DNA of 64,000 nt from an uncultured Dehalococcoidia bacterium (lineage in GTDB: Bacteria > Chloroflexota > Dehalococcoidia > Lucifugimonadales > UBA1127): NCBI GenBank assembly GCA_913049785.1, contig CAJWXP010000001.1, positions 1 to 64,000 of the forward strand. The letters run 5' to 3'. Position numbers and translations under genes: made by a program. Under the pieces are notes generated by a model. The model was given only the letters and a program-made list of their open reading frames with translations. It did not search any database and had not been told where the DNA came from. Shown piece after piece: positions 3,061 to 18,827 of the stretch. Every line of letters starts with the position of its first letter. Positions within the stretch are counted from its first letter, which is position 1.

Positions 3061-3228
3061 GGGCTACCAGCGTGTCGTACAACCCTGTCTGCAACGCTGT
3101 CAAGGACGTACCGCCCGGAGGCCATAGGTGGAGAATTCAAAGTGGACAGCGTGCCTGGCCAGGGTACGACCGTCCGTGTCTGGATACCGGGAGTTGTCTA
3201 TCCAAGAACTGGGGGAGACACACAGTGA
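3061..3228 (+). pseudogene. Histidine kinase C-terminal remnant
   Basis: The frame ending in TGA at 3226-3228 encodes the end of a sensor-kinase ATPase domain: GGEFKVDS, then PGQGTTVRVWIP, which is the usual G2 box and last beta strand. Upstream of about 3120 the frame stays open but no longer resembles a kinase, and the N box, G1 box and dimerisation domain are absent. The remnant still overlaps the following response-regulator fragment by GTGA, as in an intact two-component operon. I read it as the 3' stub of a deleted gene. Confidence 0.65.
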
Positions 3229-3383
3229 GAGTAATGCTTGTTGACGATTAACCGTTGGTGCGAAACGGCATCGCCAGTTTGCTGCAGTCACGCGGACATG
3301 AAGTGGTGGCGGAGGCGTCCAACGGTCGTGAGGCCTTCTATATCGTCAAGGACGCTGCCCCGGACCACACCTTATTTAGATAA
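3225..3383 (+). pseudogene. NarL-type response regulator remnant with nonsense codon
   Basis: A GTG start overlaps the kinase stop. The frame reads VRVMLVDD, then a TAA at 3249-3251 where family members have His or a similar residue, then PLVRNGIASLLQSRGHEVV and EASNGREA. It ends at a stop just before the position where the phospho-accepting aspartate would lie. The receiver domain is therefore broken twice, and no DNA-binding domain follows. Together with the kinase stub this is a dead two-component locus. Confidence 0.7.
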
Positions 3384-3551
3384 TCTGTGACAAGGGGAGG
3401 GCTCGCGTAAGGAGTATGTTGAGCACCCCAGAAATAGGATTGATCTGCTTCTTCAGCACTTGCTCACTCAACGGGGAACTCGTTGCCGTTGTCATAGTGG
3501 TAGGTCGTTGTGAATGCTGCCATAGTCTCTTCCCCAGGTGTTGCGAGCTGG
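3384..3551. other. Intergenic, no recognisable feature
   Basis: This spacer lies between the dead regulator fragment and the convergent PrpD gene. The 69-residue ORF starting at 3416 runs into the PrpD gene on the opposite strand and shows no family features, so I treat it as chance. Confidence 0.5.
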
Positions 3552-4925
3552 CTACTTCCCCGACAATAAAGGCCGCAGCTCTCGGATGCTGGTCACTCTC
3601 TCGATGTTCAGCATCTTATCGATAAGCTCCTCCGTGTGACTCTTGCCCAGCACCGTCGTCATCAGGTCCAGCGCCTTGGCGGTCACACCGGCCGTGTCCA
3701 GCGGGTTCTGTGCAGTGCCCGGAGCGTACTTGGTGTGGTGGGTCAGTGTGCGACCGTCCTTCGTGGTCACCTCGACGATGGCCTGGCGGGGAGCCTCTGC
3801 CATGACCAGGTTTGCGTCCGGAACCAATTCCACTTTCTCCTTCATTGCCAGAATCACAGGGTCGTTCATCCGCTCGTAATCGTGCGTGGATACGAATGAG
3901 ATGCCATCGTCGATCAGCATCAGCGCGATGCAGTGCCTGATGTTCACGTCGGGCATGGCACGATCGTTGACCACGCCTGCGCCGTCGGTAGGCAGCTTGG
4001 CAATGACCTTGACCACATCCGAGGCTTTTACGCCATCGTGTGACATGATCGTCGACAAAGCGTCCATCGCTGACTGTATCGGGTAGCCGACCGAGTAGGG
4101 TTTGATGGCGGTGGCTGCAATGCTGAACTCGATGCCCAGGCCGTCCATTAGCGCTTCCGGGTGTGGGTCTGTGGAGAACGCTTGCAGCACGTTGTGCTCG
4201 CCTTCCAGCACGTCAGGGACGCCGGTGAAGCCTGCTTGCACCATCGTGGCGGCTGTAACGCCGTTCCGCGCGCCCATCCCAGCAAAGTCGAAGGACTTCT
4301 CAACGTGCTCCTCGTCGCGTACCCACGCCCAGATGCCGGAGGCCTGTTGCGCTGCATAGGACAGCACGTATCGCATCTGCGTGGAGTCCAGCTTGGCGAT
4401 GGACGCGGCTGCGCCCGTAGCGCCCCACGTTGAACCCAGACCCTCTGCACTGCGATGGCTCTTGCGTACCAGGTCCGCGTTCATGGCATGGAGCATTCTG
4501 ACTGCCAGGTCGTAGCCCAGCGCCACTGCTCGTATCAGTTCAGTGCCCGTAGCGCCATCGCGTTCCGCCATTGCCCATGCGGCAGGGATTACGCTACATC
4601 CCGGGTGGGCCTTGGATGAGGGGTCGAAGTCGTCCGTCTCGTCAGAATGGCCGAGCATGCCGTTGGCCATCGCCGCGTTGGCTGCCGACGTGACATCGCC
4701 CGTGGTCATCAACATCGATTCAGGAGTGCCGCCCAGAGTGCGCACGTACTGCAACGCCATCTGCCCGGGCTTTAACGTGCTGCCGGACACGATCGCTGCA
4801 AGGCTGTCCAGGATGCGGTGCTTGGCCTCCCGGTCAACATCAGATGGGAGGGGTCGATTACGCGCCTCCGCCATGTAGGCTGCCAGGTTGCCGGTGAGGT
4901 TGTAGTCAGATTGGCCAATGACCAT
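3552..4925 (-). CDS. MmgE/PrpD family protein
   Basis: A 457-residue MmgE/PrpD-fold protein. Known members include 2-methylcitrate dehydratase and related dehydratases or isomerases acting on tricarboxylic-acid-like substrates. Family features are the N-terminal helical domain with ILDSLAAIVSG, the GHSDETDDFD segment, HPGCSVIPAAWA and the later SVGYPIQSAMDAL stretch. The length is typical. The ATG is preceded by GGGAG. No methylcitrate synthase or lyase is adjacent, so the propionate pathway is not shown and the substrate is open. Confidence 0.88.
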   Translation of the reverse strand: MVIGQSDYNLTGNLAAYMAEARNRPLPSDVDREAKHRILDSLAAIVSGSTLKPGQMALQYVRTLGGTPESMLMTTGDVTSAANAAMANGMLGHSDETDDFDPSSKAHPGCSVIPAAWAMAERDGATGTELIRAVALGYDLAVRMLHAMNADLVRKSHRSAEGLGSTWGATGAAASIAKLDSTQMRYVLSYAAQQASGIWAWVRDEEHVEKSFDFAGMGARNGVTAATMVQAGFTGVPDVLEGEHNVLQAFSTDPHPEALMDGLGIEFSIAATAIKPYSVGYPIQSAMDALSTIMSHDGVKASDVVKVIAKLPTDGAGVVNDRAMPDVNIRHCIALMLIDDGISFVSTHDYERMNDPVILAMKEKVELVPDANLVMAEAPRQAIVEVTTKDGRTLTHHTKYAPGTAQNPLDTAGVTAKALDLMTTVLGKSHTEELIDKMLNIERVTSIRELRPLLSGK

Positions 4926-4967
4926 GGTGCTCCCTTCGCGTGTCAGCTTCAGACAGGTACGCGCCCT

Positions 4968-4995
4968 AGTATATCGATACCTGTAGACGTAGCAA
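4968..4995 (-). promoter_or_regulatory. Possible sigma70 promoter for the PrpD gene
   Basis: On the minus strand a TATACT -10 box sits 43 bases before the ATG. The best -35 candidate is only TTGCTA at a 16-base spacing, so the -10 is convincing and the -35 weak. Confidence 0.35.
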
Positions 4996-5173
4996 GGGAC
5001 ACCTCTACCCCCTCAGGAGAGATGCCCCTGATAGCCACGCAATGGGGACAGCAAAGAGGTGCTCGCCAGCGTCGTGGTTGCAAGATTAGAACACACGTTC
5101 CATAATTGTCAAGCGTTGTTTGGCGCGATGGGTCTTGGGGGGTGTGCCCCCGACGATAAATTGGAGCAGATCA

Positions 5174-5602
5174 ATGATTGAAGTTTCCTGGCAGGCGTTC
5201 CTCGTGGCAATTGGCGCGATAGTGGCTGCGACGATGCTGGTGTACTGGATAGGCCTGGTCAAAGGCGGGCGACGTGCCACCCTGCGACACGAAGCCGCAA
5301 CCAGCGACCACTTGAGGCGCAGTAGGCAAACATTGGGGGGGCGGTTTGCGGAACAGATGGCTCCTTACTTCGATGAGTTTGACTACGACCCCACGGAGGC
5401 GCGGTTCCTCGGCAGTCCCATCGATTTTGTGGTGTTTCCGGGCATCGCGACGGGCGAGCCCCGGGGAATCGTATTCGTAGAGGTGAAGAGCGGCAAGGCG
5501 CAGCTCGACAGCGGTCAACGCAAGCTGCGCGATATCGTGGAGCGTATAGGGAGCAAAGACATCCGCTTTGAGACGATAAGGCTGCTTAAAGATGGAGTCT
5601 GA
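5174..5602 (+). CDS. Membrane-anchored Holliday-junction-resolvase-like endonuclease domain protein
   Basis: The protein has one N-terminal membrane helix (VSWQAFLVAIGAIVAATMLVYWIGLV) followed by a basic linker and a PD-(D/E)XK-like nuclease core. The core shows FDYDPTEARFLGSPIDFVVF with a central Asp and then the EVKSG motif with the catalytic E-x-K. This matches the predicted secreted endonuclease family distantly related to archaeal Holliday junction resolvase. I choose ATG 5174, giving 142 residues, because GGAG lies 7 bases upstream; the ORF-track TTG at 5120 has no SD. Its in vivo substrate is unknown. Confidence 0.75.
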   Translation: MIEVSWQAFLVAIGAIVAATMLVYWIGLVKGGRRATLRHEAATSDHLRRSRQTLGGRFAEQMAPYFDEFDYDPTEARFLGSPIDFVVFPGIATGEPRGIVFVEVKSGKAQLDSGQRKLRDIVERIGSKDIRFETIRLLKDGV

Positions 5603-5665
5603 TTCAGGGGCGATAATCACGTTCGGTGGAGTAGGAGATCCGCCCCCCACAGAAGAACCTAAGGT

Positions 5666-6637
5666 TCAGTAGCCCACGTCTTCCAGGAAGATGGGGTCGT
5701 TGCGCCACTCCTTCCACACCTGCACCCACACTTCTAGGAAAACCTCTCGACCAAACACCTGCTCCATCTGGAGTCGGGCCGCCGTGGCCACTTCCTTCAT
5801 AGCGCCTCCGCCCTTGCCAATGAGTATGCGACGCTGTGACGGTTTGTTCACGTACACAACCACCTGGATGTAGTCCTTCAATCGGTCTGCGCCGTCCGCC
5901 TCCTGGAACTCCTCTACCTCTACCGCAGTGTCATAGGGGATCTCCTGACCAAAGGTGCGGAAGAGCTGCTCTCGTACCAACTCAGATGCCAGGTACCGCT
6001 CGGAGCGGTCAGTGACCTCATCCTCACCGTATTCGGCTTTACGATGTGGCAGGTGCTCCACCATCACTTGCAGCAGCAGGTCTGTGCCATCAGACCGAAG
6101 CGCGCTGATGGGCACGATCTCCATATCCGGGTTCAGCCTGAGGTAGGACTCCATAAGCGGCAGGAGCGAGGGCTTGTCCGTGATGTCGACTTTGTTGATG
6201 ACGAGGATGGTGGGCGTTTTCTCCTGGGTCAGCGTCTTGAGCAGTCGTCGCTCCGTCTCGCCAGGAGGCTTAGGTTCCACCACCAGCAGCGCAAGGTCCG
6301 CAGCAAGCAGCGCTTCCTGGACGTGGCTGAGCATACGGCGATCAAGGGCGTCCCGCGTGCGGCGCATGTAGCCGGGGGTGTCCCAAAAAACGATCTGGTA
6401 TTCCTTGTGCGTTAGGATACCGAGGAGTTGCTGTCGTGTCGTCTGGGGTTTGGGCGATGTGATGGCCAGCTTCTGCCCCAGCAGGGCGTTCAGAAGGGTG
6501 GATTTCCCTACATTTGGTCGTCCCATGATGGAGACAAAGCCCATACGGTGCGGGGGGCGTTTGGGTTGACGCTTCTTGGCCGTAGAAGGGGTTGCCTTCT
6601 TCCGGGGAGTCTTTGTAGGCGCTTTCTCTTCTGTCAT
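5666..6637 (-). CDS. era: GTPase Era
   Basis: Era is a ribosome-assembly GTPase that binds 16S rRNA. G1 is GRPNVGKST, the switch region TSPKPQTTR is intact, G3 is DTPGY, G4 is NKVD, G5 is near ISALRSDG, and the C-terminal KH domain carries IGKGGGAMK. The ORF-track start at 6781 adds 48 residues with no similarity and overlaps the next gene; ATG 6637 gives 323 residues. Even from there an unusual 30-residue Lys/Pro/Thr-rich N-terminal extension precedes the G domain and may add RNA contacts. The DUF4177 gene lies just upstream on the same strand. Confidence 0.95.
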   Translation of the reverse strand: MTEEKAPTKTPRKKATPSTAKKRQPKRPPHRMGFVSIMGRPNVGKSTLLNALLGQKLAITSPKPQTTRQQLLGILTHKEYQIVFWDTPGYMRRTRDALDRRMLSHVQEALLAADLALLVVEPKPPGETERRLLKTLTQEKTPTILVINKVDITDKPSLLPLMESYLRLNPDMEIVPISALRSDGTDLLLQVMVEHLPHRKAEYGEDEVTDRSERYLASELVREQLFRTFGQEIPYDTAVEVEEFQEADGADRLKDYIQVVVYVNKPSQRRILIGKGGGAMKEVATAARLQMEQVFGREVFLEVWVQVWKEWRNDPIFLEDVGY

Positions 6638-6669
6638 AGGCAGTAGCGGGCTGTTTGGGACAGCCCTGT

Positions 6670-6885
6670 TTAGGCCTTCTCTCGCTTCAGGTATGCCACT
6701 GTTGCGCCGGAAGCAATACCTTCGCCGTCCGGGTCGAAGGTGTCGACGTACTCGGTCTCTGTCACGGACACAAGCTCCCAACCCTCATCGCCCAGGGTGT
6801 TCAACACCTCTTCGTAGGCGACTGTGCGATCGGCATCCTGTTCTTCATCCTCAAACTCAATGACCCTGTATTCCCATTTTGCCAT
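6670..6885 (-). CDS. DUF4177 domain-containing small protein
   Basis: A 71-residue protein with the DUF4177 pattern: KWEYRVIEF near the start, LGDEGWELVSV in the middle and AYLKRE at the end. ATG 6885 is chosen because AGGAG lies 8 bases upstream; the ORF-track start is nine codons earlier without an SD. Its biochemical role is unknown for the family. It precedes era by 32 bases on the same strand and may be co-transcribed. Confidence 0.85.
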   Translation of the reverse strand: MAKWEYRVIEFEDEEQDADRTVAYEEVLNTLGDEGWELVSVTETEYVDTFDPDGEGIASGATVAYLKREKA

Positions 6886-6987
6886 TAGGCACTCCTGATA
6901 TTCGTGTGGCATTAGCGTATGCGCAACGTGGTGCGGGCGTCCACTCTGGAACGCCCGAGATAGGTGAGATGATAGGGGATTCCCGGA

Positions 6988-8130
6988 CTAGCGACCCTGG
7001 GCGATCTGGTAGATCTTGCCTTCAGCCTTGATGTCCGGTGCGTAGATCAATTCCGTCTGTTGGAGTTCGCGAAGGTTGAACGCGCCGACCATGCCCATGC
7101 ATGCTCTGAGTGCGCCCGTCAGATTCATGGTGCCGTCTGTGCGGGACGATGGCCCGAAGAGGACTTCTTGCAGCGTGCCTTTGATGCCCACACTTATCCG
7201 GGTGCCGCGGGGTAGTGCCGGGTCCGGTGTGGCCATACCCCAGTTGTGTCCTCTGCCTGGTGCTTCTGCCGCCTGGGCGAAGGGTGTGCCGATCATGACG
7301 CCGTCTGCTCCGGCAACAAAGGACTTGCAGACATCGCCGCCGGTCCGGATGCCGCCGTCCGTGATGACGGAGACGTAGCGGCCTGTGCGGTGGAGGTATT
7401 CCTCTCGAGCAGCAGCGCAGTCCATGGTGGCTGTGACCTGCGGGACGCCGATGCCGACGACTTCGCGGCTGGTGCAAGCGGCGCCTGGCCCAATGCCGAC
7501 CAGGAGTCCCTGGATGCCGTTCTCCATGAGCTCCAGCGCCACGTCGTAACCGACGCAGTTGCCCACGACGACGGGGATCTTGATCTGTTCAACCAGCTCT
7601 GAGAAGACAAGGCCGTGGTAGCTCTTGGAGATGTGCTTCGCTGTGGTGACGGTGGATTGGACTACCAGCATGTCTGCCCCTGCCTCTACGGCAATGGGGG
7701 CGAAACGCTTGGCCTTCTGCGGCGTGACTGCTACAGCGCACTTCACATCGCCGGCCTTGATCTCATGGACTCGTTGGGCAATAAGCTCCTCCTGGATCGG
7801 TGCGGTGTAGAGGCTTTGCAGCAGTGCGGTGGCTTGTTCCAACGGGGTCTCAGCAACCTCCGCCAGCTTGTCCTCCGCGTCCTGGTATCGGGTCCACAGT
7901 CCCTCCAGGTTGAGGACGGCGATGCCGCCCTTCCTCCCCATCTGTATGGCGAAGCTCGGCGAGACTATGGCGTCCATGGCGGATGCCATCACGGGAATAT
8001 CAAACTTCAGATCCCCGATGGACATGCTCATGTCGGCCTGCTCTGGATTGATGGTGACCTGCCCCGGGACAATGGCAACCTCGTCGAACCCATAACTGCG
8101 ACGTATCTCCTTGAACTGGGGCACCGCCAT
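6988..8130 (-). CDS. guaB3: GuaB3 family IMP dehydrogenase-related protein
   Basis: A 380-residue IMPDH/GMPR-fold TIM barrel lacking the CBS pair of classical IMP dehydrogenase. It has the purine-binding region MASAMDAIVSP, the cysteine loop GPGAACTSREVVG with the catalytic Cys, and the phosphate-binding SVITDGGIRTGGDVCKSF. It matches GuaB3 proteins common in Actinobacteria and also found in cyanobacteria and Chloroflexota. GuaB3 enzymes act in purine nucleotide redox metabolism, but the exact reaction cannot be read here. A good promoter lies just upstream (8168-8196). Confidence 0.9.
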   Translation of the reverse strand: MAVPQFKEIRRSYGFDEVAIVPGQVTINPEQADMSMSIGDLKFDIPVMASAMDAIVSPSFAIQMGRKGGIAVLNLEGLWTRYQDAEDKLAEVAETPLEQATALLQSLYTAPIQEELIAQRVHEIKAGDVKCAVAVTPQKAKRFAPIAVEAGADMLVVQSTVTTAKHISKSYHGLVFSELVEQIKIPVVVGNCVGYDVALELMENGIQGLLVGIGPGAACTSREVVGIGVPQVTATMDCAAAREEYLHRTGRYVSVITDGGIRTGGDVCKSFVAGADGVMIGTPFAQAAEAPGRGHNWGMATPDPALPRGTRISVGIKGTLQEVLFGPSSRTDGTMNLTGALRACMGMVGAFNLRELQQTELIYAPDIKAEGKIYQIAQGR

Positions 8131-11418: not shown

Positions 11419-12603
11419 ATGAAACGAAGCACAGACAGGATACTGACCACCCACGCGGGCAAGCTGCCCAACCCCACAAACATGGCGGAAGTGCAGAAGG
11501 CCAAGGCTTCTGGGGACCAAGCAAAGATCGATGACGTGGTGACGGCGGGCATCCTGGAAGCGTTCGTCCGGCAGCGTGAACTGAAGAACGATATTCACAG
11601 CGACGGCGAGTTCTGGAAGAGTCGTGACGAGACCTACTTCGCAGGTAGGACTACGGGAGTGGAAGCCAAGCCGGTCACTCCTGACAACCCGGCGTCCATG
11701 CTGGCCAACATGCAGGAGCGGCACAGCGGGCAGTTCGATGACTTCTATGCGGCGTTCGACCGTGTGGGCAACACGCCCCAACCGGGACAGGACAACCCCG
11801 CTCCAACGCAGCGATGGGTCATCACCGGCGCTATGGAGAACAAAGACGAGGCGTCCAGCAAACACGAAGTCGCAGTGGTCAAGGCCGCGCTGGAAAAGGC
11901 GGGCGTCGACAAGGAGGACTTCTTCTATCCGGTGCTGAGTCCGGGCTGGCTGGGTCATTCCCTGTGGAACGAGTACTACAAGACCGAGGAAGAGTACGTC
12001 TATGCGATGGCTGAGTTCTATCGTCAGGACTACGAGGCCGTGGCGGAGGCTGGGTTCCTCCTGCAGATCGACGACCCTGATCTGGTGGACGCCTTCTGCA
12101 TGTTCACCCCAGCTAAAAGCGTTGAGGAGTACCGGAAGTACGTCGACCTTCGCATCGAGGCGTTGAACTACGGTCTGCGCAACGTTCCAGAAGAACAGAT
12201 CCGCTACCACACCTGCTGGGGAAGCTGGCACACCCCTCATGTTACAGACCTCCCCTTTGAGCACACGGTGGACATCATGCTCAAGGTGAAGGCCCAGGCT
12301 TACTCCGTTGAGGCGGCGGACGCGCAGCACATCCTGGACTACAAGGTCTGGGACAGGATCAAATTCCCGGACGGCAAGATATACATCCCAGGCGTAGTAG
12401 CTCACAAGACCACCACGGTGGAGACGCCTGAGGTGGTGGCAGACCGCATCATCACCTACGCAAACATCATGGGTAAAGAGAACGTAATCGCTGGGACAGA
12501 CTGCGGTTACGGCGGCAGGACGTATCCGGACATCGCGTGGGCCAAGATGCGGGCAATGGCGGCGGGCGCTGAGCTAGCAACCAAGCAACTCTGGGGCAAG
12601 TAG
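11419..12603 (+). CDS. MetE/UROD-superfamily protein (cobalamin-independent methionine-synthase-like), paralog 1
   Basis: A 394-residue single-domain protein resembling the C-terminal barrel of MetE and epoxyalkane:CoM transferase-like enzymes. It begins ILTTHAGKLPNP, keeps the DGEFWKSRDETYF segment, and has likely zinc-thiolate ligands in YHTCWGSWH (His-x-Cys) and GTDCGYGG (Cys). These families activate a thiol at zinc for alkyl transfer. The N-terminal half of MetE is absent, so true methionine synthase activity is doubtful. GCAGGAG precedes the ATG. A second, divergent member lies at 18848. Confidence 0.85.
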   Translation: MKRSTDRILTTHAGKLPNPTNMAEVQKAKASGDQAKIDDVVTAGILEAFVRQRELKNDIHSDGEFWKSRDETYFAGRTTGVEAKPVTPDNPASMLANMQERHSGQFDDFYAAFDRVGNTPQPGQDNPAPTQRWVITGAMENKDEASSKHEVAVVKAALEKAGVDKEDFFYPVLSPGWLGHSLWNEYYKTEEEYVYAMAEFYRQDYEAVAEAGFLLQIDDPDLVDAFCMFTPAKSVEEYRKYVDLRIEALNYGLRNVPEEQIRYHTCWGSWHTPHVTDLPFEHTVDIMLKVKAQAYSVEAADAQHILDYKVWDRIKFPDGKIYIPGVVAHKTTTVETPEVVADRIITYANIMGKENVIAGTDCGYGGRTYPDIAWAKMRAMAAGAELATKQLWGK

Positions 12604-13254: not shown

Positions 13255-14169
13255 ATGGAAGCGGGTACACGAGTGCTGGTACGTCGATCCCTGCTGGTGG
13301 TGTCACCACTGGACGATAGGGGACTTACGGACGCAGCCAATAGCGTAGCCGACGCCATAGTGGTCGATCTGACCTCCCGCGTTCCCAAACCCCAACGTGA
13401 TGACGCACGCCGTGCCACTCCGTCCGCGGTGGAACGCCTGTCGGGCAGCGGCGCTGAGTTGCTTCTGTGGACGGACCCTAAGGGCGTTTCGGCTGACCTT
13501 GCGGCCTGCGGATTTGAAGCTATCACCGGAGTGGTTGCAGCCGTTGATACACCTGAGGAAGCTAACAGTATCGACGAAGCCCTGGCTACGTGGGAATCGG
13601 CCAACAACATCCCAAACGGCACGCTGACCATGGAGCTTGTCCTTGCATCTGCCAAAGCTGTGGGCAACGTAGACCAACTAGCGGCTGCCAGCCGTCGTAT
13701 CGCGGCGATGGCCCTTGACGATGAAACGCTGCTGTGTGAAATGGGCGTTGCATCTTCTGGCCCTTCAGACAGGTTGCTCTATCAACGGGGTAAGATGGTC
13801 ATGTCCGCCCGGTCGGCAGGGATACAGGTACACGCACTGGGGCATATAGGCGACAGCCTCGTCGACCGCGCAGTCGCAGCTCGCCAGGCCGGACTTCGAG
13901 GGGCATTGTGCTTCAACTCGATTGAAGTCCTGGCTCTTAATACCGGTTTTAGTCCCCTTATCGAAGAAATCGAGGCCGCGAGACAAGTTCTGGAAGTCAT
14001 GCAGGAAGCTGTCGATGGCGGTCGCGGCGCGGTTGCCGTGTCCAGCGGACAGATGGCAGACCTGGCCAACGTCCGGGGCGCGCAGGCCATCATCGCGTGG
14101 AGCGAAGCCGTCGAAGCCCGAGAATCTCTTCGCAGGCAGCCTGCCTCGTCGCAAATAAGCCTGGAGTGA
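13255..14169 (+). CDS. Degenerate CitE-like (HpcH/HpaI fold) protein, triplet member 1
   Basis: A 304-residue protein that follows the CitE/HpcH barrel layout (VRRSLLVVSP, then ADAIVVDLTSRVPKPQRDDAR), but the usual DLED/IED metal-site acids are replaced by DLTS. The later E-D-L segment reads ALDDETLL, so lyase chemistry may be lost or altered. ATG 13255 fits the family N-terminus; the ORF-track start is 31 codons upstream across a palindrome. It is the first of three tandem plus-strand paralogs with gaps of 31 and 10 bases, and is probably co-transcribed with them. The function is unknown. Confidence 0.7.
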   Translation: MEAGTRVLVRRSLLVVSPLDDRGLTDAANSVADAIVVDLTSRVPKPQRDDARRATPSAVERLSGSGAELLLWTDPKGVSADLAACGFEAITGVVAAVDTPEEANSIDEALATWESANNIPNGTLTMELVLASAKAVGNVDQLAAASRRIAAMALDDETLLCEMGVASSGPSDRLLYQRGKMVMSARSAGIQVHALGHIGDSLVDRAVAARQAGLRGALCFNSIEVLALNTGFSPLIEEIEAARQVLEVMQEAVDGGRGAVAVSSGQMADLANVRGAQAIIAWSEAVEARESLRRQPASSQISLE

Positions 14170-14200
14170 TAGACAACTCGACTCAAGAAAGGGAAACCTT

Positions 14201-15709
14201 TTGGCTATAGAGGATTACATACAACCCGGCGAGCGTATCGTTGCTGAGTGCGCGGGGGTGTATGCCACAAACCATCGAATCATCCACTACACGCCGCGGT
14301 CAAAGAGCCTGACCTTCCGTGAGTATGCTTACCCCCAGATCACAGCGCTCAAGCTGGTGCCGAAAGCACGTTTCTCCACGGTGTTTCTTGGCTTCATCGT
14401 CACATTGCTCAGCCTTCTAGCCGGACCCGGCAGCCCCTTTCAAGTAGGTGTTGCAGCTCTGGGAGTGGGCGCAATGGGGATGGGGCTTCTCCTGGGTGAC
14501 CGGTATCTGGAGGTCACCGGCGACGCGGACGACGGTAAACCTGCTCAGTGGCGACTGAGAGATGCTTCCGACAAAGAGAGCAAAGAGTTCCTAGCGGCTG
14601 CGCGAGCTGCGATGGCTGGCCCTCCTGCACTGGTTGCTGTAACACCCGCCATAGTCATAGAAACATCGATGTCTGGCACCGTGCCGAGATCAGTCCTATT
14701 GATTCCCGCCGACCAGCCTTCGCAAGTGCGATCCGCGCTGGAAAGCGTCGCGGACGTTGTTTGCATCGATATGGCTGACCTGGTGCATCCTGCCAACCGG
14801 GCCGCAGCCCGACTCATGATGTGGGGAGAGGTCACTGCGGCAGCACGATCATCCAAGGGCGTTTGGGCACAAATCGGCGTGGAGTCGCTTCAAGAGGATC
14901 TGGAAGCCTGTGTGTGGCCCGGTCTTGGCGCTGTCGTCGCACACGTGGACTCCGCTGAGGCTGTACGCGGGTTGGACGATGCACTAGCCGCCTGGGAGAA
15001 GGAACGGGACGTGCAATCCCAAGTGAGCATCGTGGTTGCTCTGGACACCGCCGCTGCGGTCTGGTCTGTCCGCGAGACCCTTGTTGCAAGCCCAAGGGTA
15101 TTGGCAGCGGCTGTCGGGGGGCAAGACCTCCTCCACCTGCCGGAAACTATCTCACCGAGACAACTCTTCTCAGCTCAGGAATACATGCAGGGTCGGATAG
15201 CCGCTGGGGCGATCGAAGCCGGCGTGCCGATGCTGGGAAAGATCGGCACAGACATCGCGCTGGGACATCTGGCTGAGGCTTTAGGGACAATCGTAGATAC
15301 TCGAATATTCCGGGCTGCACAGACGGCTCGCGGCGATGGGTTCCACGGCGCAGTCACCACTCACCTTGAGGCCCTAAGCGCCTGCAACACAGCCTTCCCG
15401 CTTTCCGTGCCAATGCTGACCCCGCTACAACCACCGGCCCCATTGGCCGCGCATCTGCAACCCGTTGTGCCATCGCACTTTGAACTGGCGCAGATTGCTC
15501 CGCAAACAACTCCGACTCCCTCAGCTTATAACCCTGTAGTGCCGTCCCACTTCGACGTTAAACCACAAACAATGCCGCCGGTGCCCGAGAGATCGCGACC
15601 CGTCGCGGCTCCACGCGGGCTAAAGTCCTTGCCGCTGTCGCCCAGTAATTGGCGACCGGTAGTGCCGTCACATTTTGGGCGTGTCGTCCCACCTCCTGAG
15701 GCTGGCTAG
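14201..15709 (+). CDS. Fusion: membrane PH-like domain + degenerate CitE barrel + VVPSHF-repeat tail (triplet member 2)
   Basis: A 502-residue three-part protein. Residues 1-60 resemble a bacterial PH-like domain (GERIVAECAGVYATNHRII). Two membrane helices follow at about 62-77 and 82-97. Residues 165-410 form a CitE-type barrel (VPRSVLLIPADQ, VVCIDMADLV) missing the catalytic Glu, Lys and Asp residues. The Pro-rich tail carries PVVPSHF three times. It starts with TTG behind AAGGGAAA. It sits between two other CitE-like genes, which suggests tandem duplication and neofunctionalisation into a membrane-bound, probably non-enzymatic partner. I know no described protein with this architecture. 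Confidence 0.75.
   Translation: MAIEDYIQPGERIVAECAGVYATNHRIIHYTPRSKSLTFREYAYPQITALKLVPKARFSTVFLGFIVTLLSLLAGPGSPFQVGVAALGVGAMGMGLLLGDRYLEVTGDADDGKPAQWRLRDASDKESKEFLAAARAAMAGPPALVAVTPAIVIETSMSGTVPRSVLLIPADQPSQVRSALESVADVVCIDMADLVHPANRAAARLMMWGEVTAAARSSKGVWAQIGVESLQEDLEACVWPGLGAVVAHVDSAEAVRGLDDALAAWEKERDVQSQVSIVVALDTAAAVWSVRETLVASPRVLAAAVGGQDLLHLPETISPRQLFSAQEYMQGRIAAGAIEAGVPMLGKIGTDIALGHLAEALGTIVDTRIFRAAQTARGDGFHGAVTTHLEALSACNTAFPLSVPMLTPLQPPAPLAAHLQPVVPSHFELAQIAPQTTPTPSAYNPVVPSHFDVKPQTMPPVPERSRPVAAPRGLKSLPLSPSNWRPVVPSHFGRVVPPPEAG
15461..15676 (+). repeat. Three PVVPSHF-coding repeats in the C-terminal tail
   Basis: The heptapeptide PVVPSHF is encoded at 15461-15481, about 15533-15553 and 15656-15676. 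The codons differ between copies, so the peptide rather than the DNA appears to be conserved. Linkers are Pro/Ala/Thr-rich. Confidence 0.85.
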
Positions 15710-15719
15710 GCTTCCGGCG

Positions 15720-16676
15720 ATGACCTTCGTCCGCCGCTCCATGCTGTTCACCCCTGCCAACGTGCGTCGCTTTGTGGAGGGCGTCTGGAAGCACAGCCCC
15801 GACATGGTGGTGCTTGACATTGAGGACTCGGTGGCGCCCGACCAGAAGCAGTCGGCGCAAGCCATGATGCAGGACGCCATACCCCTGGCTGCGCGAGGTG
15901 GCGCAGAGGTCGCAGTGCGCGTGAACAGTGACACCGTGGCAGAGGACTGCAACGCCGCGATATGGCCCGGCTTGTGTGCCGTGGTACTCCCCAAGGCTGA
16001 AACTCAAGAGCAGATCACAACGTTGGACGCCCTACTCACCCGACTTGAAGCCGAGCGTGGCCTGCCTCCTATGTCTGTGGAGATCATGCCCATGATAGAG
16101 TCGGCGATAGGGGTCCAGAACGCCTACGCAATCGCCTCTGCCAGCAGGCGTATCAAATCGTTCGGCGTGCTGGGAGAAGCGGATCTCACGGCCGACCTGG
16201 GAGCATCGTTCGACGCACTGCAATCCCACGACGTGCTTGCGTACCCACGTGGCGAGGTTGGCCTAGCAGCATGCGCTCTGGGACTGACGGTAAACGGTCG
16301 AGCGTGGACACCGGGCAAAGCGACCATCGCCGACTACGGCGACCTCGAAGCTCTAGAACGGTCTATGCGGGCTTCGTGGTTGGCGGGGTGTCGCAGCACC
16401 TTCTGCATCCATCCCCGACAGGTGGCCGCCGCAAACGAGCACCTGCGCCCATCGGCGTCAGACGTTGCTCAGGCTTCCGAGATGGTGCGAGCGTACACAG
16501 AGGCCGACCGGGCACGGCTGCCTTACGGCGTGCTTGACGGGTTGGTCGTTGACGCCAAAAGCGCCCAGACTGCTCAGAACATCATCGATTACGCGGCGGC
16601 GTGTGATGCCAAAGATGCAGCCAAGGCCAGCCGTCGCGCCAAGTTGGAAGTCGAGGCACGCAATGAGCCTGTATAA
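15720..16676 (+). CDS. HpcH/HpaI aldolase / citrate lyase beta-like (CitE) protein, triplet member 3
   Basis: A 318-residue CoA-ester lyase-type barrel with the active-site pattern intact: RRSMLFTPAN, VVLDIEDSVAPDQK, VRVNS, VVLPKAE, MPMIESAIGV and GEADLTADLG. Family members cleave citryl-CoA, malyl-CoA or similar CoA esters, or act as malate synthase-like enzymes. ATG 15720 gives the canonical N-terminus; the ORF-track start at 15675 overlaps the previous gene. It is the only catalytically complete member of the triplet. The stop overlaps the start of the next, HAD-type gene by 14 bases. Confidence 0.88.
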   Translation: MTFVRRSMLFTPANVRRFVEGVWKHSPDMVVLDIEDSVAPDQKQSAQAMMQDAIPLAARGGAEVAVRVNSDTVAEDCNAAIWPGLCAVVLPKAETQEQITTLDALLTRLEAERGLPPMSVEIMPMIESAIGVQNAYAIASASRRIKSFGVLGEADLTADLGASFDALQSHDVLAYPRGEVGLAACALGLTVNGRAWTPGKATIADYGDLEALERSMRASWLAGCRSTFCIHPRQVAAANEHLRPSASDVAQASEMVRAYTEADRARLPYGVLDGLVVDAKSAQTAQNIIDYAAACDAKDAAKASRRAKLEVEARNEPV

Positions 16677-17504: not shown

Positions 17505-18827
17505 CTAAACCCTGCCGTCAGCGCGCAGTGCGGAGAATGTCTCCTCAAAGTACCCTAGCGTCTCCTGGATATCGGCGTCAGTGTGGGCTGATGAGACCAG
17601 TCCGGAGCGCCCGCCCATCAGGTCCATGCCTGAGTTCAACGCAGCCAACCGCAGTTGCCTGACCAATGCCGGTGGGGTCGCGCCCTGCGATTCTGACGGG
17701 TGCTGGTGCTCGGCGTCCGTACACTGGCACTGCATCCCCAACCGAAGCTGGAAGATCGATGCCATGCCGTAGCAGCAACCGGGTATCTCCATGCGCGTCA
17801 TGAGGTCGTTGATGCCGCGTCGCAGCACCGTGGCTGTGGCGTCCGCCTTGGCGTTGTGCTCACCGGTTGCAACGAGTTTCAGCGCCGCCGTGCCCGCAGC
17901 CGCTGCCAGAGGATTGGCGTTGAACGTGCCGGCGTGGCCCACACGGTTGTCGCCGTTGCTCTCATCGTGGGCGATCATGTTCAGGATGTCAGCGCGACCC
18001 GACACGGCGCCGCCGGGCAGCCCGCCAGCGAGGATCTTGGCCAGCGTTGTGACGTCCGGGGTCACGCCGTAGAGGGACTGTGCGCCTCCTGTGGAGATAC
18101 GAAAGCCTGTTACCACCTCGTCGAAAATCAGTACGACGCCATGCTTGGTTGTGACGTCTCGTAGCTCCTGCAAGAACTCCGGGTACACGGGAATCTGGCC
18201 CATGCCAGCGCCTGTGGGCTCTAGGATGACCGCTGCGATGTCGTCGTGCTCCTCCAGCGTGCGCGCTACTGCGCCATTGTCGTTGGGCTGCAGAACGTAG
18301 GACAGGGCGGCGACCTCCGGGGCGATGCCACCCATGTTGCGACCTGAGCCTGCCAGCAGGAAGTCATGCCAGCCGTGGAAGTGGCTCTGGAACTTGATGA
18401 CTTTGTACTTCCCGGTGAACGCTCGAACCAGGCGCAGGGCCAGCAGCGTCGCTTCCGTGCCGGAGGATGTGAATCGCACGCGTTCGGCGGAGGGGATGAG
18501 CTTCTGCACCAGACGACCCCATTCGATCTCCTCCTTGGTGTTGGCTCCCAGATGGGTGCCCTGGGTCACCTTGTCGGTAACGGCCTTTACCACATCCGGG
18601 TGGCCGTGGCCCAGGAGAAGCGCACCGTGGCCCATGACATAATCAACGTACTCATTGCCGTCAACGTCCCACTTGCGGCTTCCCTTGGCGTGGGTAGCCA
18701 CAACGGGGAAGGGCATCAGGAAACGGTTGTCGTGGGTGACGCCGTCGGGGAAGATGTCCATGGCATCGGCGTAGGTCTCCTGCGACGTTGGGTGCTTTGC
18801 TTGATACTGCTCTTCAATGGTCGGCAT
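17505..18827 (-). CDS. Class III aminotransferase (glutamate-1-semialdehyde aminomutase-like)
   Basis: A 440-residue PLP enzyme of the HemL-like subgroup of class III aminotransferases. It shows the VDYVMGHGALLLGHGHP N-terminal region, the cofactor-phosphate SSGTEATLLALRL, FHGWHDF, the VILEPTGAGMG and IFDEVVTGFR segments, and the PLP lysine in TLAKILAGGLPGGAV. No haem-biosynthesis neighbour is present, so a catabolic aminotransferase or aminomutase is as likely as HemL. A Cys-rich CQCTDAEHQH insert near residue 360 is unusual. Confidence 0.9.
   Translation of the reverse strand: MPTIEEQYQAKHPTSQETYADAMDIFPDGVTHDNRFLMPFPVVATHAKGSRKWDVDGNEYVDYVMGHGALLLGHGHPDVVKAVTDKVTQGTHLGANTKEEIEWGRLVQKLIPSAERVRFTSSGTEATLLALRLVRAFTGKYKVIKFQSHFHGWHDFLLAGSGRNMGGIAPEVAALSYVLQPNDNGAVARTLEEHDDIAAVILEPTGAGMGQIPVYPEFLQELRDVTTKHGVVLIFDEVVTGFRISTGGAQSLYGVTPDVTTLAKILAGGLPGGAVSGRADILNMIAHDESNGDNRVGHAGTFNANPLAAAAGTAALKLVATGEHNAKADATATVLRRGINDLMTRMEIPGCCYGMASIFQLRLGMQCQCTDAEHQHPSESQGATPPALVRQLRLAALNSGMDLMGGRSGLVSSAHTDADIQETLGYFEETFSALRADGRV

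Follow-up and report, generated by a model that had tools for sequence, protein, structure and literature searches.

In the window analysed here, a 64,000 nt stretch of DNA from an uncultured Dehalococcoidia bacterium, we identified a gene (gene B; Table 1) whose product joins a predicted PH-like membrane domain, a CitE-like barrel that stops short of its lid and a proline-rich tail. The fusion of domains is real and specific to the genus, and it arose within an older cassette of three CitE-like genes, A, B and C. The products of the three genes probably make up one mixed enzyme, with the complete set of catalytic residues in a single subunit. At the level of the whole order, we tentatively propose, with somewhat less than even confidence, that SAR202-type Dehalococcoidia possess three-chain CitE-like lyases in which pseudoenzymes, arranged with the single active subunit in a ring of set order, would lend it their lids, such that the lid of B and the site of A decay jointly; in one genus, the lid-less B would have taken on the role of anchoring to the membrane, its PVVPSHF tail providing multivalent docking.

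Table 1. Location of genes A, B and C and of the features of gene B in the window
Feature	Position	Strand	Description or basis
Gene A, CitE-like pseudoenzyme	13255..14169	+	Pfam PF03328, E = 2e-13; residue mapping
GAAAGGGA, ribosome-binding-site-like, before TTG start of B	14187..14194	+	
Gene B	14201..15709	+	502 aa, TTG start, TAG stop; PH-like membrane domain, lid-less CitE-like barrel and Pro-rich tail
B residues 1–140, predicted bacterial PH-like fold interrupted by a membrane hairpin	14201..14620	+	AlphaFold2, fold search
B residues 58–98, hairpin of two hydrophobic helices that separates strands 5 and 6	14372..14494	+	Hydropathy, AlphaFold2
B residues 160–402, CitE/malyl-CoA-lyase TIM barrel, stopping before the C-terminal lid domain	14678..15406	+	Pfam, AlphaFold2, fold search
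B residues 403–502, Pro-rich disordered tail where the lid would be	15407..15706	+	AlphaFold2 pLDDT <50
PVVPSHF copy 1, residues 421–427	15461..15481	+	Position common to all orthologs (QPVVPSxF)
PVVPSHF copy 2, residues 445–451	15533..15553	+	Lineage-specific; G004 has PAVPSMV and the three other orthologs lack the copy
PVVPSHF copy 3, residues 486–492	15656..15676	+	Position common to all orthologs (WxPVVPSxF)
Gene C, intact CitE-like/malyl-CoA-lyase-like enzyme	15720..16676	+	PF03328, E = 1e-28; residue mapping

Gene B is a single gene conserved throughout its genus

Full-length B is found in all five genomes of the window's genus, with 41–61 % identity between the four orthologs and B of the window, and it invariably lies between A and C, separated from them by short gaps or overlapping them. 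In the four orthologs the TTG start is identical and a GAAGGGA box occurs at about the same place. Three of them have a 10-base overlap between the end of A and the start of B, with C beginning a few bases past B. As the start and box recur in the orthologs, and as A and B overlap, the N-terminal region is part of gene B. A preliminary description of this region, made from the window sequence, had proposed a fusion protein, and the open reading frame, the start and box conserved in five genomes, and purifying selection on the N-terminal domain bear this out; the possibility of a separate gene or a frameshift product at the N-terminus was rejected, since there is one frame with the box and TTG in five genomes. 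When back-translated B peptides were compared with the genome contigs, no close relatives of window B were found.

A predicted PH-like membrane domain that also occurs alone

The N-terminal domain of window B is predicted to adopt a PH fold that carries a membrane hairpin. In the AlphaFold2 model of B, for which the five genus orthologs served as input, this region contains strands at residues 13–17, 20–23, 26–33, 36–43, 47–55, 100–107 and 115–118, together with helices at 58–71 and 79–97 (the hairpin) and at 124–138; residues 1–145 modelled alone reached a pLDDT of 82. The best fold matches of the domain model were the bacterial PH domains 3dcx (E = 1.1e-3, probability 1.00) and 3hsa, and in each of the five species the hydropathy of both helices is sufficient for a membrane hairpin. 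At the sequence level, the Pfam bPH families gave no match in window B or its four orthologs, and the domain had no significant match in the PDB; in a wider alignment of the domain, 9 of 23 members matched bPH_3 (PF14470), the best with E = 2.7e-5.

Elsewhere in the class the domain exists as a stand-alone protein, mostly of 145–250 aa (matches in 27 of 393 genomes), which identifies the N-terminus of B as a genuine fusion. The fused form is present in 5/5 genomes of the genus and in 0/1 of the sister genus. The strongest stand-alone relatives belong to family f16 (G049, G050), where an unfused A-B-C cassette is also found (L057, L206) and where, from our reading of the ORF, the stand-alone domain adjoins a CaiB-like CoA-transferase. 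A stand-alone paralog also occurs within the genus, both in the window's own genome outside the window (G000:C21:259-543) and at L102, L103 and L104, the last three, in G002–G004, directly adjoining a MetE-like gene; a MetE-like gene is likewise present in the window, at 11419–12603, upstream of A.

The lid-less barrel lies between a pseudoenzyme and an intact enzyme

The barrel of B scores above the Pfam gathering cut-off for PF03328 (E = 1.1e-10) and matches the fold of malyl-CoA lyases with E ∼1e-12. In the AlphaFold2 model of B the TIM barrel spans residues 164–398, and disorder sets in at about residue 403. The C-terminal lid, which carries a catalytic Asp, is absent, and the barrel runs directly into the disordered tail. 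At the positions of the catalytic Arg, Glu and Asp, window B has Q, D and D, and its orthologs R, E or D, and D. The order of domains given in the preliminary description (PH-like region, hairpin, CitE barrel, Pro-rich tail) stands, whereas its term 'degenerate' suits the barrel only in part: the lid is truly missing, but most orthologs keep the Arg/Glu/Asp set. With these residues mostly retained in the genus, the barrel of B may still bind substrate.

Gene C possesses all of the residues expected of an active enzyme, R67, E127, D155 and the lid residue D278, which are invariant in the genus and correspond to Arg76, Glu141, Asp168 and Asp299 in R. sphaeroides numbering. It falls under the NCBIfam equivalog cut-offs for citE (119.9 versus 443 bits), RipC (97.9 versus 375) and haloarchaeal malyl-CoA lyase (51 versus 500). 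In A, by comparison, the R, E and D positions are occupied by W, A and T and the lid Asp is retained; orthologs of A are present in 5/5 genomes of the genus. The neighbouring CitE gene had been called intact, which is correct for C; what had been overlooked is A, a second, upstream CitE paralog with a dead site. Beyond C, on the opposite strand, lies a glutamate-1-semialdehyde-aminotransferase-like gene (17505–18827 in the window), also seen in several species of the genus (flanks of L071 and L073).

An A-B-C cassette across the order

Three-gene CitE-like cassettes, first located by a profile search with B, occur across the order and in at least ten families of the class. We read 37 of them, a few cut by contig ends; nine of the families represented belong to the order (f1, f6, f12, f16, f19, f24, f33, f36 and f38), and a tenth, f63, does not. 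By tree and by type-specific profiles, the genes form three ortholog groups, A, B and C, with the assignment of A and B from f1, f16 and f38 to the other A and B groups resting partly on long branches. The profiles separate the groups cleanly: genes of the order-wide cassettes score ∼420–520 bits with the profile of their own type and ∼140–260 bits with those of the other types. Most families have the arrangement B-C-A, and f1, f16 and f38 have A-B-C. Neighbouring genes include a CaiB-like CoA-transferase (L057) and, directly upstream of one cassette, an ADP-forming hydroxyacid-CoA-ligase-like gene (L069:991-3132), in line with CoA-thioester chemistry.

Several further arrangements were observed. 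ORFs similar to this ligase flank the cassettes in L055, L060, L064 and L065, and a B-C-A cassette outside the window's order is found at L188 (G320, same class). At L059 (G054; 3114–7090) there is a run of four CitE-like genes. Two are C-type, and in the second of these the metal-binding Glu is replaced by Asp.

Loss of the B lid is associated with loss of the A site

We mapped the residues of the 37 cassettes on the malyl-CoA lyase structure 4l9y, scoring the B lid as absent in the window's genus. C keeps Arg, Glu, Asp and the lid Asp in 35/37 cassettes, the exceptions being one lid Phe and one gene cut by a contig end. A retains its lid Asp in all 36 readable cases and has lost the metal Asp in 31/37. 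B mostly keeps its acidic metal positions, and its lid or lid Asp is gone in most lineages. These losses are associated across genes: the lid Asp of B is kept in 6/6 cassettes where the metal Asp of A is intact and lost in 29 of the 31 where it is not (Fisher p = 1e-5, not corrected for relatedness). On a concatenated tree there are four independent losses of the B lid, none with the A site intact, so that the association rests on about four independent events. In two lineages, f19 and f63, the B lid is intact and the A site dead, so the A site appears to decay before the B lid.

Malyl-CoA lyase is active only as a trimer, in which the lid of each subunit shuts the active site next to it and contributes Asp299 (PMC3832036). 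Transferred to three different chains, this allows two ring orders, and only one of them leaves C with a lid Asp, the alternative giving C the lost lid of B; the lids would hence pass from B to A, from A to C and from C to B. We infer from these losses that paralogs A, B and C may assemble into a trimer of three different chains, in which C would do the catalytic work. A would close the active site of C with its swapped C-terminal lid and the Asp on it, and the lid of C would close the site of B. The lid of B, meant for the dead site of A, would be dispensable, and in the window's genus would have been replaced by the disordered tail. There, the PH-like domain and hairpin would hold the complex at the inner face of the membrane. 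We give an even chance to this reading, in which B tethers a heteromeric CitE-like C–C lyase, acting on a CoA thioester, to the membrane and has little or no catalytic activity of its own.

The same observations bear on two other readings. The tandem-duplicated A, B and C might act separately on diverged substrates, with B itself a membrane-bound lyase and its tail binding something unrelated; we regard this as unlikely. Most B orthologs do keep Arg, Glu/Asp and Asp, and the variation of gene order between families (B-C-A or A-B-C) would fit independent proteins, but CitE-like enzymes need a swapped lid with a catalytic Asp (PMC3832036), which B lacks, A is devoid of all three site residues in the genus, and lid and site losses are associated across different genes. 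Alternatively, B could be a sensor or regulator whose PH-like hairpin and barrel detect a CoA thioester or the lipid state at the membrane and which recruits or regulates C via the tail motifs, with no stoichiometric heterotrimer. The PH-like membrane domain, the multivalent disordered tail and a barrel that has metal ligands and no lid all suit such a role; this account, however, leaves the co-loss of B lid and A site unexplained in families without any membrane domain, and we rate it slightly lower still.

Two copies of the PVVPSHF repeat are under selection

The tail of window B does contain the heptapeptide PVVPSHF three times, as the preliminary description had claimed, but this does not extend across the genus, where only two copies are conserved. 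Both are present in all genus orthologs, and the His of both is replaced, by Tyr and Asp, in G004. The repeat exceeds chance: out of 20,000 sequences shuffled from the tail composition, just 43 contained any 5-mer at least three times, and the observed repeat is a 7-mer. The proposal that selection acts on the peptide is upheld on three counts. The three copies are encoded by different synonymous codons; of the 20 tail columns invariant among genus orthologs, 13 fall within the 16 motif columns (hypergeometric p = 6e-9); and dN/dS is 0–0.03 in the two conserved motifs, compared with 0.27–0.62 in the other tail codons. That the motifs are a functionless, low-complexity by-product of recent repeat expansion is, as such, very hard to credit: the tail is indeed disordered and Pro-rich and its middle copy lineage-specific, but two positions are kept in 5/5 species with almost only synonymous changes whilst the linkers diverge, and codons differ among the copies.

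The PVVPSHF copies could act as short linear motifs, by which a partner would be bound at more than one site. Docking of the tail to the adjacent intact CitE enzyme C is plausible, given the age and co-evolution of the A-B-C cassette. We also looked for a partner protein that shares the motif and found none in the genome; an additional VVPSHF-coding match in the genus (L025) lies, by our own reading, in transposase-like sequence on the other strand. The exact DNA-coded PVVPSHF was absent elsewhere in the genus genomes; across 245 further genomes from the order it occurred only three times, and a reversed control pattern was equally frequent. One of these three singletons (L110) lies in a 115 aa ORF, and the other two have no PVVPxHF in an ORF of at least 50 aa. 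The papers searched contained nothing on VVPSHF.

Comparison with known systems

If the proposed heterotrimer is correct, a TIM-barrel family of swapped-lid homo-oligomers became a heterotrimer in a group of uncultured bacteria, and the sequence record preserves the order in which paired parts decay, first the site and then the lid that serves it. It would also suggest concretely what the 'subunits of the trifunctional lyase' noted in SAR202 genomes (PMC5395668) may be and, in one genus, place the reaction at the membrane. Among the literature matches listed, none described a heteromeric CitE-like lyase.

The closest relatives of the barrel are the malyl-CoA lyases (PF03328; 4l9y from R. sphaeroides, 4l7z and 4l80 from Chloroflexus aurantiacus, and 5ugr from M. 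extorquens), with which the TIM barrel is shared; they are the best match of the B barrel by both fold and profile, and C has the same set of Arg, Glu, Asp and lid Asp. Malyl-CoA lyases are, however, hexamers (dimers of trimers) of one chain, whereas here there are three diverged chains, one of which, B, bears a predicted membrane domain and no lid. With the bacterial PH-like domains (bPH_3, PF14470; DUF1696-type 3dcx and 3hsa), the N-terminus of B has in common a predicted seven-strand PH fold with a C-terminal helix, and it differs from them in the two-helix hairpin between strands 5 and 6 and in its fusion to a lyase barrel. A further parallel is metformin hydrolase, a two-gene heteromeric ureohydrolase (PMC11399263), in which the products of adjacent paralogous genes are reported to form one enzyme. 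The present system has three adjacent paralogous genes and a decay of lid and site that runs across them, and its putative heteromer is proposed from sequence.
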